Shown here: positions 1 through 33,112 of the stretch, piece by piece
How positions within the stretch are numbered: position 1 is the stretch's first letter
How the letters are laid out: the number at the start of each line of letters is the position of its first letter
IMG/VR virus record: IMGVR_UViG_3300010379_000027
Coordinates: 1-33,112 of that record
Direction: 5' to 3' (one strand)
Length of the DNA stretch: 33,112 bases
Origin: a virus
Translations under genes and position numbers: made by a program
The notes under the pieces: generated by a model
Databases searched by the model: none
The model's input: only the letters and a program-made list of their open reading frames with translations
What the model was told of the DNA's origin: nothing

Positions 1-264
1 AAGGCCAAGCTCGCCCCGCTGGACGCCGACTACGAGACCAAGCGCGCCCCGCTGTACGCCGACTACGAGACCAAGCGCGCCCCGCTGTACGCCGACTACG
101 AGACCAAGCGCGCCCCGCTGTACGCCGACTACGAGGCCAAGCGCGCCCCGCTGGACGCCGACTACAAGGCCAAGCTCGCCCCGCTGGACGCCGACTACAA
201 GGCCAAGCTCGCCCCGCTGGACGCCGACTACAAGGCCAAGCTCGCCTCGCTGGACGCCGAGATT
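1..264 (+). repeat. 33-bp tandem repeats inside a coding region
   Basis: About eight 33-bp units, each encoding 11 residues, lie head to tail. The units fall into two subtypes: one carries gagaccaagcgc and ctgtac, the other aaggccaagctc and ctggac. Neighbouring units tend to share a subtype, which suggests growth by unequal recombination or replication slippage. Confidence 0.9.
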
Positions 265-330
265 TTGGCTTACATCAAATCGAACATTCTAGACTGCGCG
301 TGGAATGGTAAAACGCTGGTTTTCCCGTGA
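1..330 (+). CDS. Protein of tandem 11-residue repeats (5' end outside window)
   Basis: The frame is open from the first base, so the start lies outside the window. The visible 109 residues are about eight copies of an 11-residue unit of the form A-P-L-D/Y-A-D-Y-E/K-x-K-x, followed by a non-repeated tail ending NGKTLVFP and a TGA stop. Charged and hydrophobic positions recur every 11 residues, a hendecad pattern compatible with a long right-handed coiled coil; this is inference. I do not recognise a specific family. The stop codon lies 10 bases before a sequence identical to the right end of the two mobile elements further along, in the same orientation as their cargo genes. The gene may therefore be cargo of a third element whose left end is outside the window. 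Confidence 0.75.
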   Translation, partial: KAKLAPLDADYETKRAPLYADYETKRAPLYADYETKRAPLYADYEAKRAPLDADYKAKLAPLDADYKAKLAPLDADYKAKLASLDAEILAYIKSNILDCAWNGKTLVFP

Positions 331-340
331 CCACAAGATA

Positions 341-371
341 TAGGGCTGTGTGTCTAAACCGGATAAGCATG
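341..371 (+). repeat. Solitary right end of the ASCH-type mobile element (copy 3)
   Basis: These 31 bases are identical to the right ends of the elements at 11071-11101 and 14811-14841, and include the 25-bp terminal inverted repeat (347-371) ending CCGGATAAGCATG. The next eight bases, ACATCAAG (372-379), would be the target duplication if a matching left end lies upstream of the window. The gene before this end is not an ASCH gene but the 11-residue-repeat gene. Confidence 0.85.
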
Positions 372-393
372 ACATCAAGGAAGCGAGTAGAAC

Positions 394-1695
394 ATGGCGC
401 AGCACGCTAAACTCTCACCGTCATCGTCGCATAGGTGGATGAACTGCGCCGGCTCGGTCAAAAAGATCGGCGATGAAAGCTCGTCCGCCGGGCCGGAAGC
501 GATGAAGGGCACGGGCGCACACAAGGTCATCGAGACAATGATGATCGACGGCGAGACGGACAGCGCGCCTTACAAGGGCAAGGTGTGCCTCGTCCATAAG
601 CCGGGCACAGAGGACACAATCATCTGCAAGGCCGATGACAAGATCATCGCGACCAAAGTCGAGCCGGACAGCGGATGGTTTTTGTTTCCAATCGACGACG
701 ACATGCTTTTCGGCGTGCAGATGTTTGTTGATGAAGTCGAGCGCGTGCGCGCCGAGCTTGACACGCCCGACCTGTACACCGAGCGTTATCTCGACATGAC
801 GTGGCTCGACAGCCGTCTCGGCGGCACAGCCGACACGACGCTCGTCGAGTTTCTCGGATGGATACATCTTTTCGATTACAAGAACGGCCGCGTCGTGGTC
901 GATCATCGCGACAACGATCAACTGAAACAATATGCGGTCGGCTTGCTCCATGAGCACTCGGAGTGCCTTGGCGTCGTCTGCCATCTCATTCAACCAAACG
1001 CGGCGCATGAGGAAGGCCAAGTGCGTCCGCCGGTCGCGTACAGCGCCGACGAGCTAAAGCTATACGAAATTCAGATGAAGGAAGCGGCCGATGCGACGAG
1101 CGCGCCCAACGCGGCGCTGCGCGCCGGGGATTGGTGCACGTACTGCCCGGCCAATACGCGGTGCGAGGAATTCGACGGCATGATCGCGGTCGAAGCGGGC
1201 GTCGATTTCAACGACGATCCGTTGCTCGCCGAGCCTGTGGTGCCGACCGACAACACCGAGCTTGCACGCCGCATGAAGTTCATTCCGATCTTCGATGGAT
1301 GGAAGCGCAACATGCTCGCGCAAGCAATGGCAGAGATGGTCGGCGGCCGATCCGTGCCGGGCTGCAAGCTTGTGCGTGGTCGCAGCAATCGGAAGTGGTC
1401 GCCCAATCCTGAGACGGCCAAGGCGGCGTTGATCGCCGAGCACGGTCTCGACGAGACGTTGATGCTCACCGAACCGGAATTAAAGTCACCGGCTCAACTC
1501 GAAAAAGCGCCGTTCCCCGGTCTCAAGAAAAAAGTGCTCAAGGATATTGTCGAGACGCTCACCGTTCGACCGCCCGGCAAGATCGCTGTGGCATTCCGGG
1601 AGGACCCGCGTGAGGAAGTTGACCCGAATGCTCTCGCGGGGGAGGATTTTGCCAACGACGCGCTTGAGGGTGACGAAAGCGACTTCGGAGTGTGA
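394..1695 (+). CDS. DUF2800 family Cas4/AddB-like PD-(D/E)XK nuclease
   Basis: This 433-residue protein matches the phage DUF2800 family, which belongs to the PD-(D/E)XK nuclease superfamily. Visible core: GGTAD with D147, FDYK with D161 and K163, and a Q motif at NDQL (Q176). An iron-sulphur cysteine set is visible as C18 and then C248-x2-C251-x5-C257, the Cas4/AddB arrangement for a 4Fe-4S cluster. The likely role is processing DNA ends during phage recombination or replication, alongside the SSB and polymerase downstream. ATG 394 starts just beyond a mobile-element end and has a GGAAGCGAG-like ribosome site. The C-terminus is acidic and ends ESDFGV, resembling the end of the SSB at 3087-3752. 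Family assignment is strong; biochemical role is inferred. Confidence 0.88.
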   Translation: MAQHAKLSPSSSHRWMNCAGSVKKIGDESSSAGPEAMKGTGAHKVIETMMIDGETDSAPYKGKVCLVHKPGTEDTIICKADDKIIATKVEPDSGWFLFPIDDDMLFGVQMFVDEVERVRAELDTPDLYTERYLDMTWLDSRLGGTADTTLVEFLGWIHLFDYKNGRVVVDHRDNDQLKQYAVGLLHEHSECLGVVCHLIQPNAAHEEGQVRPPVAYSADELKLYEIQMKEAADATSAPNAALRAGDWCTYCPANTRCEEFDGMIAVEAGVDFNDDPLLAEPVVPTDNTELARRMKFIPIFDGWKRNMLAQAMAEMVGGRSVPGCKLVRGRSNRKWSPNPETAKAALIAEHGLDETLMLTEPELKSPAQLEKAPFPGLKKKVLKDIVETLTVRPPGKIAVAFREDPREEVDPNALAGEDFANDALEGDESDFGV

Positions 1696-10249: not shown

Positions 10250-10576
10250 ATGCCGATTGACCAAACCGTCAAGGATCGCGCCTACAAGATCGACCCGGAG
10301 GCGTGGCAGAGCTACAGCGGCAAGTCGAAGCCCGAAAAACAATACATCGACGGCCGGCGCAATCTGTCTCTCGCCGCTGCGGCGAGGCAAATTCAGGACG
10401 AGATGGGCAACCCGGTCGAGCGCGTGCGCTACACGCTCCGCAGCTACATTGAGATGCTTCGCGAAGGTCACTCGCTGATCTTGCGCGAGACGGACGGCGA
10501 GGACTACAATGTGAGCGAGGAAGATCAAGAGACCATGCTTATCCGGTTAACGCACACAAACGCTGAGACCTACTAG
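10250..10576 (+). CDS. Hypothetical protein with C-terminus replaced by a mobile element
   Basis: A 108-residue protein starting two bases after the helicase stop. It has an early IDPEAWQSYSGKSKPEKQ stretch and a helical body. The last residues, MLIRLTHTNAETY, are encoded by the left end of the element at 10534. Removing the element and one copy of CAAGAGAC restores a frame ending DQETIACALERGMP with TGA at 11141-11143, which overlaps the GTG of the next gene. The ancestral product would be 105 residues. Function unknown; it may still work because only the tail changed. Confidence 0.7.
   Translation: MPIDQTVKDRAYKIDPEAWQSYSGKSKPEKQYIDGRRNLSLAAAARQIQDEMGNPVERVRYTLRSYIEMLREGHSLILRETDGEDYNVSEEDQETMLIRLTHTNAETY
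10526..10533 (+). repeat. Target-site duplication, left copy (element 1)
   Basis: CAAGAGAC lies directly outside the left end of element 1 and is repeated exactly at 11102-11109. Confidence 0.85.
10534..10558 (+). repeat. Left terminal inverted repeat, copy 1
   Basis: Begins CATGCTTATCCGGTT; the reverse complement of 11077-11101 with 22 of 25 positions matching. It is translated as part of the tail of the interrupted gene. Confidence 0.88.
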
Positions 10577-10593
10577 ATGTGGAGGGCACAAAA

Positions 10594-11067
10594 ATGAAGG
10601 CAATTTCTCTCTGGCAGCCTTGGGCATCACTATGGCTCACGCCAGCAAAGGTTCATGAGACGCGGCATTGGCCTACGTCGCATCGTGGATGGCTGCTTGT
10701 TCACGCTGCCAAGCGGACCATTGATGATTACGAAGGCGACGATGCGCTTGACCAGATTTGCGACCGCATTTTCGGCGCGGGTTGGAGTTCGACGCTTCCT
10801 AGAGGGGCACTCCTTGGCATTGTGAACGTCGTGGATTGCGTCCGAACCGAAAAAATCCTCCAAGGATACCAAGAGCCCGACGATTACGAGTGCGGCGATT
10901 TTTCCGAAGGCCGCTACGGCTGGCGTCGCGACAAGTTCAACGTCTTTGACAACCCGATCCCCTACCGGGGTGCACAAGGCATCTTCAGCGTGCCGGACAC
11001 TTTCTTGCCCGTGAGCCGAACCGTTCTCGGCTTTCCGGGCGATCCTGATCTTGAACTGACCTACTAG
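10594..11067 (+). CDS. ASCH-domain protein (element cargo, copy 1)
   Basis: A 157-residue protein opening MKAISLWQPWASLW, with HETRHWP and RGWLLVHAAKR, the hallmark of the ASCH (ASC-1 homology, PUA-like) fold. Members bind RNA or act on modified nucleosides; the E. coli member YqfB hydrolyses N4-acetylcytidine. The function here is unknown. ATG 10594 has GGAGGG seven bases upstream; an in-frame GTG at 10579 is less likely. It is the only gene of the 568-bp element. Its relative at 14334-14807 has the same length, nearly identical ends (FPGDPDLELTY) and a much diverged middle, which suggests selection on the fold. Confidence 0.88.
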   Translation: MKAISLWQPWASLWLTPAKVHETRHWPTSHRGWLLVHAAKRTIDDYEGDDALDQICDRIFGAGWSSTLPRGALLGIVNVVDCVRTEKILQGYQEPDDYECGDFSEGRYGWRRDKFNVFDNPIPYRGAQGIFSVPDTFLPVSRTVLGFPGDPDLELTY

Positions 11068-11076
11068 CGGTAGGGC

Positions 11077-11101
11077 TGTGTGTCTAAACCGGATAAGCAT
11101 G
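11077..11101 (+). repeat. Right terminal inverted repeat, copy 1
   Basis: Ends AACCGGATAAGCATG. The 31-base right end (11071-11101) is identical to 341-371 and 14811-14841. Confidence 0.9.
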
Positions 11102-11109
11102 CAAGAGAC
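11102..11109 (+). repeat. Target-site duplication, right copy (element 1)
   Basis: CAAGAGAC, identical to 10526-10533. Confidence 0.85.
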
Positions 11110-14014: not shown

Positions 14015-14316
14015 AAGTCGTTTTTGGAAAAATCTACATCCCGCACCTGAATTACACGGTGCATGTGAAGCCGATCAATATGGCGCGCACGCCGGCACGG
14101 ATACACACCGCGCTCGCTTACGTCGAGCGGATCGACAACCGGCTCTGCGAAGTGCACATGCCGCGAAACGATCTGCCCAGCTCGGTTGCGCATGAGCTAA
14201 TTCATGTTCTACAATACATCTGCGAGGCCCGGCACATCGACTTCGTTCAAGAGCAAGAGCACATGAGCTATTTCATGCTTATCCGGTTGACACATACAAA
14301 CGCTAGGACCCACTAG
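14011..14316 (+). CDS. Zincin-like protein truncated by mobile element 2
   Basis: A 101-residue protein starting at ATGA with the previous gene. HELIH (61-65) in VAHELIHVLQY is an HExxH zinc-protease motif, with E81/E83 downstream as possible third ligands. The last residues, MLIRLTHTNARTH, come from the left end of the element at 14274. Removing the element and one AGCTATTT copy restores SYLMQWLMGKILNYDW and a frame of 117 residues, ending at TAG 14938-14940. The present gene therefore lacks its native C-terminal helix. It may be a small metallopeptidase, but the substrate and present activity are unknown. Confidence 0.65.
   Translation: MKVVFGKIYIPHLNYTVHVKPINMARTPARIHTALAYVERIDNRLCEVHMPRNDLPSSVAHELIHVLQYICEARHIDFVQEQEHMSYFMLIRLTHTNARTH
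14266..14273 (+). repeat. Target-site duplication, left copy (element 2)
   Basis: AGCTATTT, repeated exactly at 14842-14849. Confidence 0.87.
14274..14298 (+). repeat. Left terminal inverted repeat, copy 2
   Basis: Begins CATGCTTATCCGGTT; 22 of 25 positions match the reverse complement of 14817-14841. Confidence 0.88.
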
Positions 14317-14333
14317 ATGTTGAGGGCAGAACG

Positions 14334-14807
14334 ATGAAGGCAATTTCACTCTGGCAACCGTGGGCATCCCTTTGGTGCAGCGGACGCAAGCGACACGAAA
14401 CGCGGCACTGGCCGATTAACCATCGCGGCCCACTGATTGTTCATGCAGCCAAGCGATTTGAGAAACGATTTGACGCCGATGATCCTATCCGGGCCATCCT
14501 AGAGGATGAATTTGGTGGCCATTGGGGCATGGACCTGCCGATTGGCGCGCTAATTGGCACGGTCGTGATCGTAGATTGCCATGGAACCATTGGGATGCGG
14601 TTCGCCAAGGACGATGAATGGGAGGATTTTGCTTGCGGAGATTTTTCAGGCGGTCGGTATGCGTGGGAAGCCAAGAATTTCACCGCCTTTTCCGAGCCGA
14701 TCCCCTACCGTGGTCAACAGGGTATTTTCAATGTGCCGGATGAGCTTCTACCGAAGCGCACTGTATTGAGTTTTCCCGGCGATCCTGATCTTGAACTGAC
14801 CTACTAG
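14334..14807 (+). CDS. ASCH-domain protein (element cargo, copy 2)
   Basis: A 157-residue ASCH (PUA-like) protein: MKAISLWQPWASLW, HETRHWP, RGPLIVHAAKR, PIGALIGTVVIVDC, then IPYRGQQGIFNVP. ATG 14334 has TGAGGG upstream. It is the sole gene of element 2. Compared with copy 1, the N-terminus, the YRGxQGIF region and the last 11 residues are conserved, while residues about 42-100 differ heavily. The family binds RNA or processes modified nucleosides. What it does for the element or the phage is unknown. Confidence 0.88.
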   Translation: MKAISLWQPWASLWCSGRKRHETRHWPINHRGPLIVHAAKRFEKRFDADDPIRAILEDEFGGHWGMDLPIGALIGTVVIVDCHGTIGMRFAKDDEWEDFACGDFSGGRYAWEAKNFTAFSEPIPYRGQQGIFNVPDELLPKRTVLSFPGDPDLELTY

Positions 14808-14816
14808 GGGTAGGGC

Positions 14817-14841
14817 TGTGTGTCTAAACCGGATAAGCATG
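14817..14841 (+). repeat. Right terminal inverted repeat, copy 2
   Basis: Identical to the right ends at 347-371 and 11077-11101. Confidence 0.9.
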
Positions 14842-14849
14842 AGCTATTT
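14842..14849 (+). repeat. Target-site duplication, right copy (element 2)
   Basis: AGCTATTT, identical to 14266-14273; followed by the severed C-terminal coding part of the zincin-like gene. Confidence 0.87.
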
Positions 14850-30030: not shown

Positions 30031-33000
30031 TCAAGTGATAATCAAGAGACGCCGCTTTCGTGGTGCCGGGACAGGTTTTTGCGTCGGAATAGGAAAGCCG
30101 GCCGATGCCCATCGGCTCGGCGGCTCGGTCGATTGCCACACAGCGGTCACGGCCGCGATGTTGCTCGACGCCCATCGGTCTCGCAATTCCCGCGACGCCC
30201 ATTGTCCGGTTGTTTGCTGCGGCGGGATAAGCCATCCGTTACCGCTCGCGTGATCCTTGGCGTCGGTCGAGGCCCACGTGCAGTGCGCCGGCACAAACGC
30301 CGCCCATCCGGTGCCCCATCCGGGAAGCGCGGTGAACAAGCCATCGTTGGTGCACGTGTCGGCCGCTTCGTGTATCGCAGCCGAAGTCGTGTAGTTCGGC
30401 GGGAAGCCGACCCATCCGCCGGGCGATGCGATGCCGATGGAAGTGAAGTTGCCGACGTGATCCGTCGTGTCCTGCGTCTCGACGGCTGCGAGGACGCCGT
30501 GCGGCGGCACAGGCAAGCCGACCGGGATTGCATCTGCGAGCGCGACCCACGTAGCCGGGTGTGGCGACGCGCCGAATTGTGCGACTTCATTATCGACGAG
30601 ACCGGCGCTAAACAAAAACTCGATTGCGATATTTGCCGGCGGTCCCGCGCTCGACGTATTCAATAGCAAGCCGTTCGTGTTGTCTGTCAAGAATGGTGCG
30701 ACGGTGCCGCTCGCTTCCGACGTGGTGCCATTCGCCGTCATCGCGAGCGTGAGCGTGTTTAAGTTGAGTGTATTGATGTTGCTGATCGAGACTTCGGCAT
30801 CCGCGTTGCTGTGATTGTACGCGGGCAACGACGGGTCGCCGTCCCAAAAGACGTGATCGTATTGGCCGGTCGCGCCGCCGACGCCAAAAATAAGGAAGCT
30901 CACCGTGTCGCCGGCTTGCGTCTCAGTGGTCGAGACCGTGATCGTGTCGTTGTTCGCCGGCTCGGTCGAGAACGCCCACCACACTTCAAGCGCCTGCGTG
31001 CCGGTGTTGTCGGTCACACGCGAGCGCCTCGAGAAGCCGGGCGAGTTGAGCAACTGGCCGACAGTCGCCGAGACGCCCGTCACTTCGCCGAGACCTGTCG
31101 CGCTCTCGATGAACACGACGCACACGTACATCAAGTTATGATTGAACGTCGTGAAGCCGTCAATGAATGCCGAGCCGTTCGCGCCCGACAGCGACAACAC
31201 GGTGTTTGCTCCGCCGTCAAAGTAGAATAGCTGCGGATCGGCTGTGCCGCTATCTGTTGCCGCAACCAAGGCATCGACCATGATGTCGCGGTAGTTATAC
31301 GTGCCGCCGGTTTGGCCGAAAGACACATCCGCGCCACTCTGCGGAAGATTGGTGATCGTGTAGGCGAACGAGGCGTAGTAGGTAAAGCCGTCGTGCTGCG
31401 CCGCGCTGATTGGCCCCGTTTCATAAGTGTACGGAGCCGTGACCGTGCCATTGTCCGGCGTGCCTTGCGAGCCATAGAACGCGATTAGGAAAGCGTTGTC
31501 GGCGTTGGTATGAACCGGGCACGGCGGATTGCCGCTGTTCGTATTCATGTACCATCCCGCCATCGAGTGCGTGTCCCAAGGCGCGACGACATTACAGCCG
31601 GCGACTGCGGCGGCGATCACGTCAATGACGCCCGCGCTCGTCGTGGTGACGGTGATGGCGTCGGCCGACAGGATGTCCGGCGCGTGCGCCCACCAAATCT
31701 CTTGTGACGGATTGCTACTGCCGAAGCCGAGCGCGTAACGCTGATTACGTTTCTGCCAAAACAATCCGGCAGTATCGGAGATGGACACGACGCTCGGCGT
31801 CAATGAGAAGCCGCCGGTCTCAATCATGAGCACGATAATGTCGGCGGCGTTATTCGTCGAGAGAGTGACTTCGCACGTCGTCACCGGGCCGCCGCCGCTG
31901 TCATTGTTGGTCGCATGAGCGGTTGCGTCAAGTGACAGAGGCGGCACGGCGCGACCCGTGCCCGCGAAAGCGTCTTTGGCTTCGGTCGAGTGCCACGGCC
32001 CGAAGGGCGGCACATCGCCGGTAGCGGCCATTATATCGGTGTGCTCGACCGCCGGCATGGTCGCGGTCAACTGCGGATAGCCCGCGCCTGCGAAGGCATC
32101 CTTGGCTTCGGTCGAATGCCACGGGCCGCCGCGCAGATCGCCGCGCGATGCAAACACGTCCTTGGCTTCGGTCGAGGCCCACGCGCCACTAGGCCATCCG
32201 ACCATCGCGTCCGCGTAAATCCATCGGTTGTTCGCGCCGCCGCCCGTCGAAGTAAATTCGACGACGCCGGCCGTGGTCGCGCTCGTCGTCTGCGCGATGC
32301 CGGTTTCGGCTTCGATGGCCCATCCGTCTTTTTCGTTCTTGGTGACGCCCTCAAGGTAGGACGTTAGAAGATCGCTCGGCTCGACGTGGCCGCCGGTCGG
32401 CGTGCCGTTGCTCGCGTAGAAACCGAAAATGAAATTGCCGTCGTTGCTATTCGTCGTGATGTCAACGAGCGCCGGTCCCGATCCGCCGTTGTCAAAGAAC
32501 ACGCCGAGCGGCGAGTGCAAATCCCACGGGTCAAGGTAGTTTGCCGACGCGACTGCGAAAGCGTTGACCGAAATGCCGCCGGTCTTGCCGGCAGTATTGA
32601 CCACGATATTGTACGTGTCGGCGGCCGGCGCGTGCGCCCACCACACTTCCATGTCCATCCGGCTTTCGCTTGGGATGACTTCACTGAAACGCTTTTCCCA
32701 ATGAAGGCCGATGTTGTCGGTGATCGACGAGACAGTGCTGTGATGCCAAAAGCCGCCGGTCGCGATGCACAGCACGATCACGTCGTCGGGGTAGCTCGTC
32801 TCGATGGTGACATTGCCGCTCGTCGTGCCGCTGCCCGACGTGTCGGCTCCGCCGCCGACTGCGTAGCTGTCGAGGCCAAATGCCGGGATGCTGTGCCCGA
32901 CAAAATCCATTACGTCTTTGTTGTCGGTCGAGGCCCACGTCGCGGTGAGCTTCGGATAGCCCGCGCCGGCAAACGTGTCGGCGGCTTCGGTCGAGGCCCA

Positions 33001-33112
33001 CGTGCCGAGCGGAGCCGACTTGCCTGAGAACACGTCCGTCGCTTCCGTCGAGGCCCACGTGCCGAGCGGAGCCGACTTGCCTGAGAACACGTCCGTCGCT
33101 TCCGTCGAGGCC
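30031..33112 (-). CDS. Large repetitive tail-fibre-type protein (5' end outside window)
   Basis: More than 1020 residues are visible and the frame runs off the right edge; an internal GTG (33090) is not the real start because the repeat pattern continues past it. It contains some ten units of about 19-21 residues of the type WASTEAKDVFAGxG, some perfect, some decayed (LAAVETQDTTDHVG, WASRELRDRWASSN). Between them are three related beta-rich domains of about 230 residues with shared VIVLxIxTGGF and VWWAHAP-like signatures. This pattern of small linkers and beta-sandwich domains fits a tail fibre or other receptor-facing virion protein. Thr/Ser richness would suit glycosylation by the nearby cassette, but that is inference. 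Confidence 0.78.
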   Translation of the reverse strand, partial: ASTEATDVFSGKSAPLGTWASTEATDVFSGKSAPLGTWASTEAADTFAGAGYPKLTATWASTDNKDVMDFVGHSIPAFGLDSYAVGGGADTSGSGTTSGNVTIETSYPDDVIVLCIATGGFWHHSTVSSITDNIGLHWEKRFSEVIPSESRMDMEVWWAHAPAADTYNIVVNTAGKTGGISVNAFAVASANYLDPWDLHSPLGVFFDNGGSGPALVDITTNSNDGNFIFGFYASNGTPTGGHVEPSDLLTSYLEGVTKNEKDGWAIEAETGIAQTTSATTAGVVEFTSTGGGANNRWIYADAMVGWPSGAWASTEAKDVFASRGDLRGGPWHSTEAKDAFAGAGYPQLTATMPAVEHTDIMAATGDVPPFGPWHSTEAKDAFAGTGRAVPPLSLDATAHATNNDSGGGPVTTCEVTLSTNNAADIIVLMIETGGFSLTPSVVSISDTAGLFWQKRNQRYALGFGSSNPSQEIWWAHAPDILSADAITVTTTSAGVIDVIAAAVAGCNVVAPWDTHSMAGWYMNTNSGNPPCPVHTNADNAFLIAFYGSQGTPDNGTVTAPYTYETGPISAAQHDGFTYYASFAYTITNLPQSGADVSFGQTGGTYNYRDIMVDALVAATDSGTADPQLFYFDGGANTVLSLSGANGSAFIDGFTTFNHNLMYVCVVFIESATGLGEVTGVSATVGQLLNSPGFSRRSRVTDNTGTQALEVWWAFSTEPANNDTITVSTTETQAGDTVSFLIFGVGGATGQYDHVFWDGDPSLPAYNHSNADAEVSISNINTLNLNTLTLAMTANGTTSEASGTVAPFLTDNTNGLLLNTSSAGPPANIAIEFLFSAGLVDNEVAQFGASPHPATWVALADAIPVGLPVPPHGVLAAVETQDTTDHVGNFTSIGIASPGGWVGFPPNYTTSAAIHEAADTCTNDGLFTALPGWGTGWAAFVPAHCTWASTDAKDHASGNGWLIPPQQTTGQWASRELRDRWASSNIAAVTAVWQSTEPPSRWASAGFPIPTQKPVPAPRKRRLLIIT
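32992..33112 (-). repeat. Perfect 57-bp tandem repeats in the fibre gene
   Basis: 32992-33048 and 33049-33105 are identical 57-bp units encoding 19 residues, and a third begins at 33106. They continue beyond the window. Identity at DNA level points to recent expansion, in contrast to the decayed repeat copies further along the protein. Confidence 0.93.

Follow-up and report, generated by a model that had tools for sequence, protein, structure and literature searches.

A phage contig that opens inside a gene of short tandem repeats, with a copy of a mobile element end directly behind it, raises the question of whether the repeat gene is cargo of that element or an ordinary neighbor. The window analyzed here spans an entire IMG/VR virus record (33,112 bases), whose end coincides with base 1. 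The reading frame at 1-330 (+ strand) is open at the contig start and consists of 33-bp tandem repeats that encode 11 residues each; 109 residues, the 3' part of the repeat gene, are present. Its stop codon (328-330) is followed by 10 bases and then by a 31-base block (341-371) identical to 11071-11101 and 14811-14841, the right ends of two elements carrying ASCH-like genes, whose stop codons end 3 bases before the same block. A sequence-only reading had proposed that a third copy of this end is preceded by a co-oriented hendecad-repeat gene in a layout matching the ASCH copies, and each of these points was reproduced. The right end module spans 331-371 (+ strand; core-group consensus acCACaAgatgTAGGGCTGTGTGTCTAAACCGGATAAGCATG), with a right terminal inverted repeat of approximately 25 bp at 347-371 (+ strand) and the core AACCGGATAAGCATG at 357-371. 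The core occurred five times in the window, compared to a mean of 0.03 in 100 shuffles (up to 2 mismatches allowed). The next 8 bases, ACATCAAG (372-379), are the one visible copy of a target duplication predicted from the 8-bp duplications of other elements. A DUF2800 gene (PDDEXK-like; PF10926, 1.1e-47) at 394-1695 (+ strand) is the phage gene adjoining the third insertion and lies outside the element.

Both ASCH elements are complete, 568 bp long and on the + strand, with exact 8-bp duplications on either side. The first (10534-11101; left module 10534-10583, cargo CDS 10594-11067) lies between copies of CAAGAGAC at 10526-10533 and 11102-11109, and the second (14274-14841; cargo CDS 14334-14807) between copies of AGCTATTT at 14266-14273 and 14842-14849. 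The cargo of cassette 1 matched the ASCH Pfam family with an E-value of 0.03 and that of cassette 2 with 0.003, at 15.4 and 18.7 bits against a gathering cut-off of 21.2, and the proteins are therefore called ASCH-like only. The cargo of cassette 2 also matched phrog_3193 (4.6e-35). Plasmids gave no match to the ASCH cassette. When the gene broken by the first element was joined again, its product had no match in annotated phage records. The window holds just two left ends, both belonging to the ASCH copies; the left end of the third element, expected as CATGCTTATCCGGTT preceded by ACATCAAG, would lie beyond the contig start. No ASCH remnant was seen ahead of position 341. With a contig start that falls within the repeats, the window alone cannot show the repeat gene as cargo.

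A complete counterpart was found in IMG/VR contig 3300048762_000055 (L023:224-909, equal to L113:2911-3596). This 686-bp element has both ends, contains the whole 11-residue-repeat gene (188 aa), and is flanked on either side by an exact 8-bp duplication, AAGTCAAT. Its identity to window positions 3-378 is 92%, and its cargo is 92% identical to the cargo at 1-330. That the repeat gene would sit between a left and a right end was thus borne out in a relative, the left end of the window copy being out of sight. The same junction between repeat gene and element end was present in four further contigs (L009, L028, L041 and L052), and the matches in L041 and L052 run to the contig ends within the repeat gene. 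When the N-terminal part of the L023 protein, which is missing from the window, served as the query, four loci were returned: those on the contigs of L023, L009 and L028, and L116. On the L009 and L028 contigs, the same pair of ends encloses the repeat gene at a single other site common to both, and the flanking 8-mers do not match. The repeat numbers of these two copies (L009:5707-6226 and L028:6322-7072) differ at the same site, unless the assembly collapsed. One of their flanks, GTCTCTTG, reads as the window duplication CAAGAGAC in reverse complement; the surrounding DNA is not homologous to the window, and the resemblance was dismissed as chance. At L116:2980-3866, the repeat gene has no element ends and many more repeats, and it is homologous to the cassette only as far as TGACCACAA, at the element end module; the locus is either source-like or a decayed copy. 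Annotated phage records gave no match to the repeat protein. Its structure, predicted from L023 with no alignment, has a long helix at residues 77-174 and an N-terminal part of low confidence (mean pLDDT 61.5), and was not counted as evidence of function.

To place these copies in a wider family, IMG/VR was scanned with the 20-base end, which returned 63 stretches, and again with a 16-base end. Many contigs in the resulting set are fragments. Sixty distinct elements of 240-2302 bp had both ends and 8-bp duplications, exact in 58 and with one mismatch in two. None of the 1770 pairings of duplications from different elements was equal, and the duplications contained 70% A+T compared to 43% in the flanks. 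Within a core group of 28 cassettes, pairwise identity was 89% over the left 50 bp and 90% over the right 42 bp. The exact end sequence used as search seed inflates the apparent conservation of the outermost 16-20 bases in these values, but affects neither inner positions nor duplications. The interiors (bases 60-100) were 26% identical, the chance level, and the change was abrupt at position 50. The flanks of several two-ended elements (L009/L028, L012, L051 and others) do not match, indicating that some have been rearranged. At L051:1153-2685, two cassettes follow one another; the facing flanks (right of 1878 and left of 2327) are both GAAGGATT and the outer flanks differ, which suggests a rearrangement between elements. 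The 8-mers beside L065:2099-2524, ATATACAT and ATGTATAT, are reverse complements and not direct repeats. At L036:3703-4850, an ORF resembling TnpB (IS605 OrfB-type, by eye) lies between element-type ends with mismatched flanks.

The interiors of the elements were mostly occupied by ORFs, and protein comparison with inspection assigned the cargo of the core group to about 24 families. In the full set, besides the ASCH-like proteins of the window, the cargo included C5 cytosine methylases (L019 and L082), an adenine methyltransferase (L064), a protein matching Mom (L053; 4.6e-33), and NADAR proteins (L030, and L057, whose cargo is 71% identical to that of L030). Weak matches to PAPS-reductase (L039) and radical SAM proteins (L048) were obtained, and many other cargos are unknown. 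Some cargos share their final residues: the tail QTQDVGLCV is common to the L019 methyltransferase and the NADAR proteins of L030 and L057, and the radical-SAM-like cargo ends in QTQAVGLCV. ASCH homologues outside cassettes have C-terminal ends different from those of the cassette copies. The cargo of L015 is unrelated to ASCH, yet its 3' module and last 16 residues are those of the second ASCH copy; by eye this cargo is papain-type and resembles that of L017, and it had no Pfam match. The earlier suggestion that the family may exchange cargo is supported by the 28 near-identical-ended cassettes with unrelated interiors and by the ASCH-type 3' module of L015.

No transposase is encoded in the window. 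Eleven elements longer than 1.5 kb encode one type of transposase, and the proteins of the full-length members L070 and L029 matched NF033547 'IS1595 family transposase' (7.3e-55), PF12762 (8.6e-32) and PF12760 (2.7e-13), that is, a DDE_Tnp_IS1595 transposase with an N-terminal zinc ribbon, as belongs to that family. Further genes can lie between the left end and the transposase, a C5 methyltransferase gene in L070 and a PAPS-reductase-like gene in L109. Cassettes and transposase-bearing elements have similar terminal repeats. Among plasmids, the closest named element was ISAcr1, whose transposase shares 64% amino acid identity with that of L070. As read from L165, ISAcr1 has the terminal repeat CTTGCCTATCCGGTTGACTCCCA, which differs from the AACCGGATAAGCATG core at 2 of 15 positions, and the 8-bp duplication GAATCAGC. 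The terminal repeats of this named element and the AT-rich 8-bp duplications of the 60 elements likewise place the family with IS1595, in which the target duplication is 8 bp (PMC8101967, PMC7835479). ISEc69, another element of the IS1595 family, uses AT-rich 8-bp targets, in agreement with the cassette duplications (PMC7835479), and the title of a paper by Siguier and others, as cited in PMC8101967, sets IS1595 at the border of insertion sequences and transposons. A close transposase (73-87% identity) was also found on 11 of the 42 cassette-bearing contigs, which makes mobilization in trans plausible. Since the window has no transposase of its own, we infer such action here, and movement of the cassettes in trans by a related IS1595 transposase would be the simplest explanation. 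Annotated phage records contained only one match to the transposase, a distant one.

On the evidence of shared ends, target duplications, unrelated cargos, full-length IS1595 relatives and a repeat gene inside a complete element, all read from sequence, window positions 1-371 very probably form the 3' portion of a mobile insertion cassette that belongs to an ISAcr1-like IS1595 transposon, is non-autonomous and would be moved in trans. The fixed end modules (approximately 50 bp on the left and 41 bp on the right, the outer 25 bp inverted) would be recognized by an IS1595 transposase supplied by a full-length relative in the same phage, by a co-infecting phage or by the host cell. The enzyme would insert the cassette into an AT-rich 8-bp target, which is thereby duplicated. 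The interior would be interchangeable cargo, the repeat gene here and ASCH-like genes in the two other copies, exchanged presumably through recombination in the end modules themselves or close beside them. The cargo may be expressed from phage operons with the help of a start codon in the left end, and selection may favor the genes that are useful to the phage.

Three other explanations were weighed. Positions 341-371 might be a solo end, or the end of a decayed ASCH element, with the repeat gene an ordinary phage gene beside it. In its favor, the window shows no left end for this copy, L116 demonstrates that the gene can exist outside an element, and single ends do exist (L111 and L112, described below); however, the complete L023 element joins the same gene to the same right end within an exact 8-bp duplication and is 92% identical to the window copy, the junction recurs in L009, L028, L041 and L052, and no ASCH remnant precedes position 341, so that we regard this explanation as improbable.

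The other two concern how the cargo came to differ. If the ends were recombination sites, integron-like or served by another site-specific recombinase, cargo would be swapped there site-specifically, as might be read from the unrelated single-gene cargos, the uniform ends with their own start and stop codons, and the elements with non-matching flanks. The exact 8-bp duplications at scattered sites are instead footprints of transposition, and the full-length relatives with matching terminal repeats encode an IS1595 DDE transposase, which leaves site-specific exchange very unlikely. Equally unlikely, in our estimate, is that phages produced the cargo diversity only by recombining homologously with one another at resident elements and near them, with transposition contributing little. 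Mismatched 8-mers around some two-ended elements, and the L015 cassette, whose unrelated cargo ends in a 3' module of ASCH type, fit such recombination, but the 8-bp duplications at 60 sites, 58 of them exact, call for many insertions; homologous recombination can add to transposition and not replace it.

The left end may contribute to the expression of the cargo. In 20 of 38 cassettes, the cargo ORF begins with an ATG located at left-end position 44. In both ASCH copies, L023, L058 and one of the L051 cassettes, a short frame from this ATG stops on the cargo start in an ATGA overlap, for which L025 has GTGA. A few cassettes lack the position-44 ATG and have an AGGAG-like motif before their own start. 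In 18 of 21 informative cases, the cargo ran in the same direction as the ORFs on both sides (p=0.0015; longest ORFs were used and not curated gene calls). Read-through transcription from phage operons with translation aided by the left end would account for this arrangement. Alternatively, the ATG may owe its conservation to a transposase binding site that includes it, because CTAGATGTTG recurs inverted in some right ends. We claim no promoter for the left end, where by eye the full-length elements have a TTGACA-17-TAGTAT-like sequence and the cassettes a weak version of it. A broader scheme, to which we give somewhat less than an even chance, is a phage-wide exchange of cassettes in which the IS1595 end modules of approximately 50 and 41 bp supply transposase recognition, the start codon (or an ATGA-coupled leader) and the stop codon. 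If this were true, almost any captured gene could become a transposable, expression-ready unit, and DNA-modification and other accessory genes could spread in this way among environmental phages.

Elements with insertion sequence ends that bracket a cargo other than a transposase, within a target duplication, are known as mobile insertion cassettes, and this structure is present in both ASCH elements and in L023, the third copy showing its right end only. The principle is known from MIC231 and the qnr mic elements (PMC3913671). MIC231, of IS231 from Bacillus cereus (Chen 1999, De Palmenaer 2004), can be mobilized in trans by the IS231A transposase, as reported through PMC3913671 and PMC2266710, and full-length relatives hold additional genes after the left end, ahead of the transposase (PMC2266710). 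The present cassettes are alike in that a cargo gene replaces the transposase between the ends and in having full-length relatives with extra genes. Unlike IS231 (IS4 family, Bacillus), they are of IS1595 type, are carried by phages, have far more varied cargo and hold a start codon in the left end. The terminal repeat of ISAcr1 (IS1595 family, Acidiphilium) closely matches that of the cassettes, and its duplication is likewise 8 bp; its sampled copy is a simple insertion sequence on a bacterial plasmid with a transposase only, in place of which the phage cassettes carry other genes. The qnrD and qnrS2 mic elements also carry cargo between inverted repeats with a target duplication and no transposase, but differ in their resistance cargo and plasmid setting, and qnrD has a 2-bp duplication and no identified transposase (PMC3913671). 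Like MITEs, the cassettes are short and non-autonomous with insertion sequence-type ends, but MITEs have no coding capacity and are ruled out by the ORFs that fill most of the elements. Integron gene cassettes are likewise exchangeable and single-gene, but they move by attC-type recombination with no target duplication and are ruled out by the 8-bp duplications on both sides. Outside most subscription papers and all bioRxiv preprints, the literature searched held no account of such cassettes in phages, and we rate as new the IS1595 type, the phage setting, the range of cargo and the start codon supplied by the end.

Across genomes from 84,980 species, only two Xanthobacteraceae MAGs contained the 20-base end, one single end in each, and no transposase was found in either. 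These lone right ends (L111 and L112) have no left end, and the gene before them is SLOG/DUF2493-like by eye. These two MAGs point weakly to Xanthobacteraceae as the host. Annotated phage records gave no match to window positions 1-1000; with single ends in those two MAGs and no close annotated phage relatives, the family is seen here only in environmental phage contigs. Among the collected loci there was no exactly matching empty site, and relatives sought via the DUF2800 protein gave no loci. A further locus, L162, was found via its DNA polymerase (64% identical to that of the window) and has the DUF2800 gene directly after a different upstream gene with no element ends; it is too distant to provide an exact empty site.

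Phage accessory genes known as morons move between phages, and to our knowledge the entry and exit of single genes is seldom visible. Here the near-identical ends, the target duplications and the unrelated cargos resolve the cassette boundaries to the base. Mom-like proteins, cytosine and adenine methyltransferases and NADAR proteins are classes linked to evading or countering host defense, and for the Mom-like, methyltransferase and NADAR cargos found here such a link is putative. The conserved ends offer a search tag with which uncharacterized phage accessory genes can be harvested. At the other end of the window, 30031-33111 (- strand) encodes a large, probable structural protein with several repeated segments resembling ASTEAKD.
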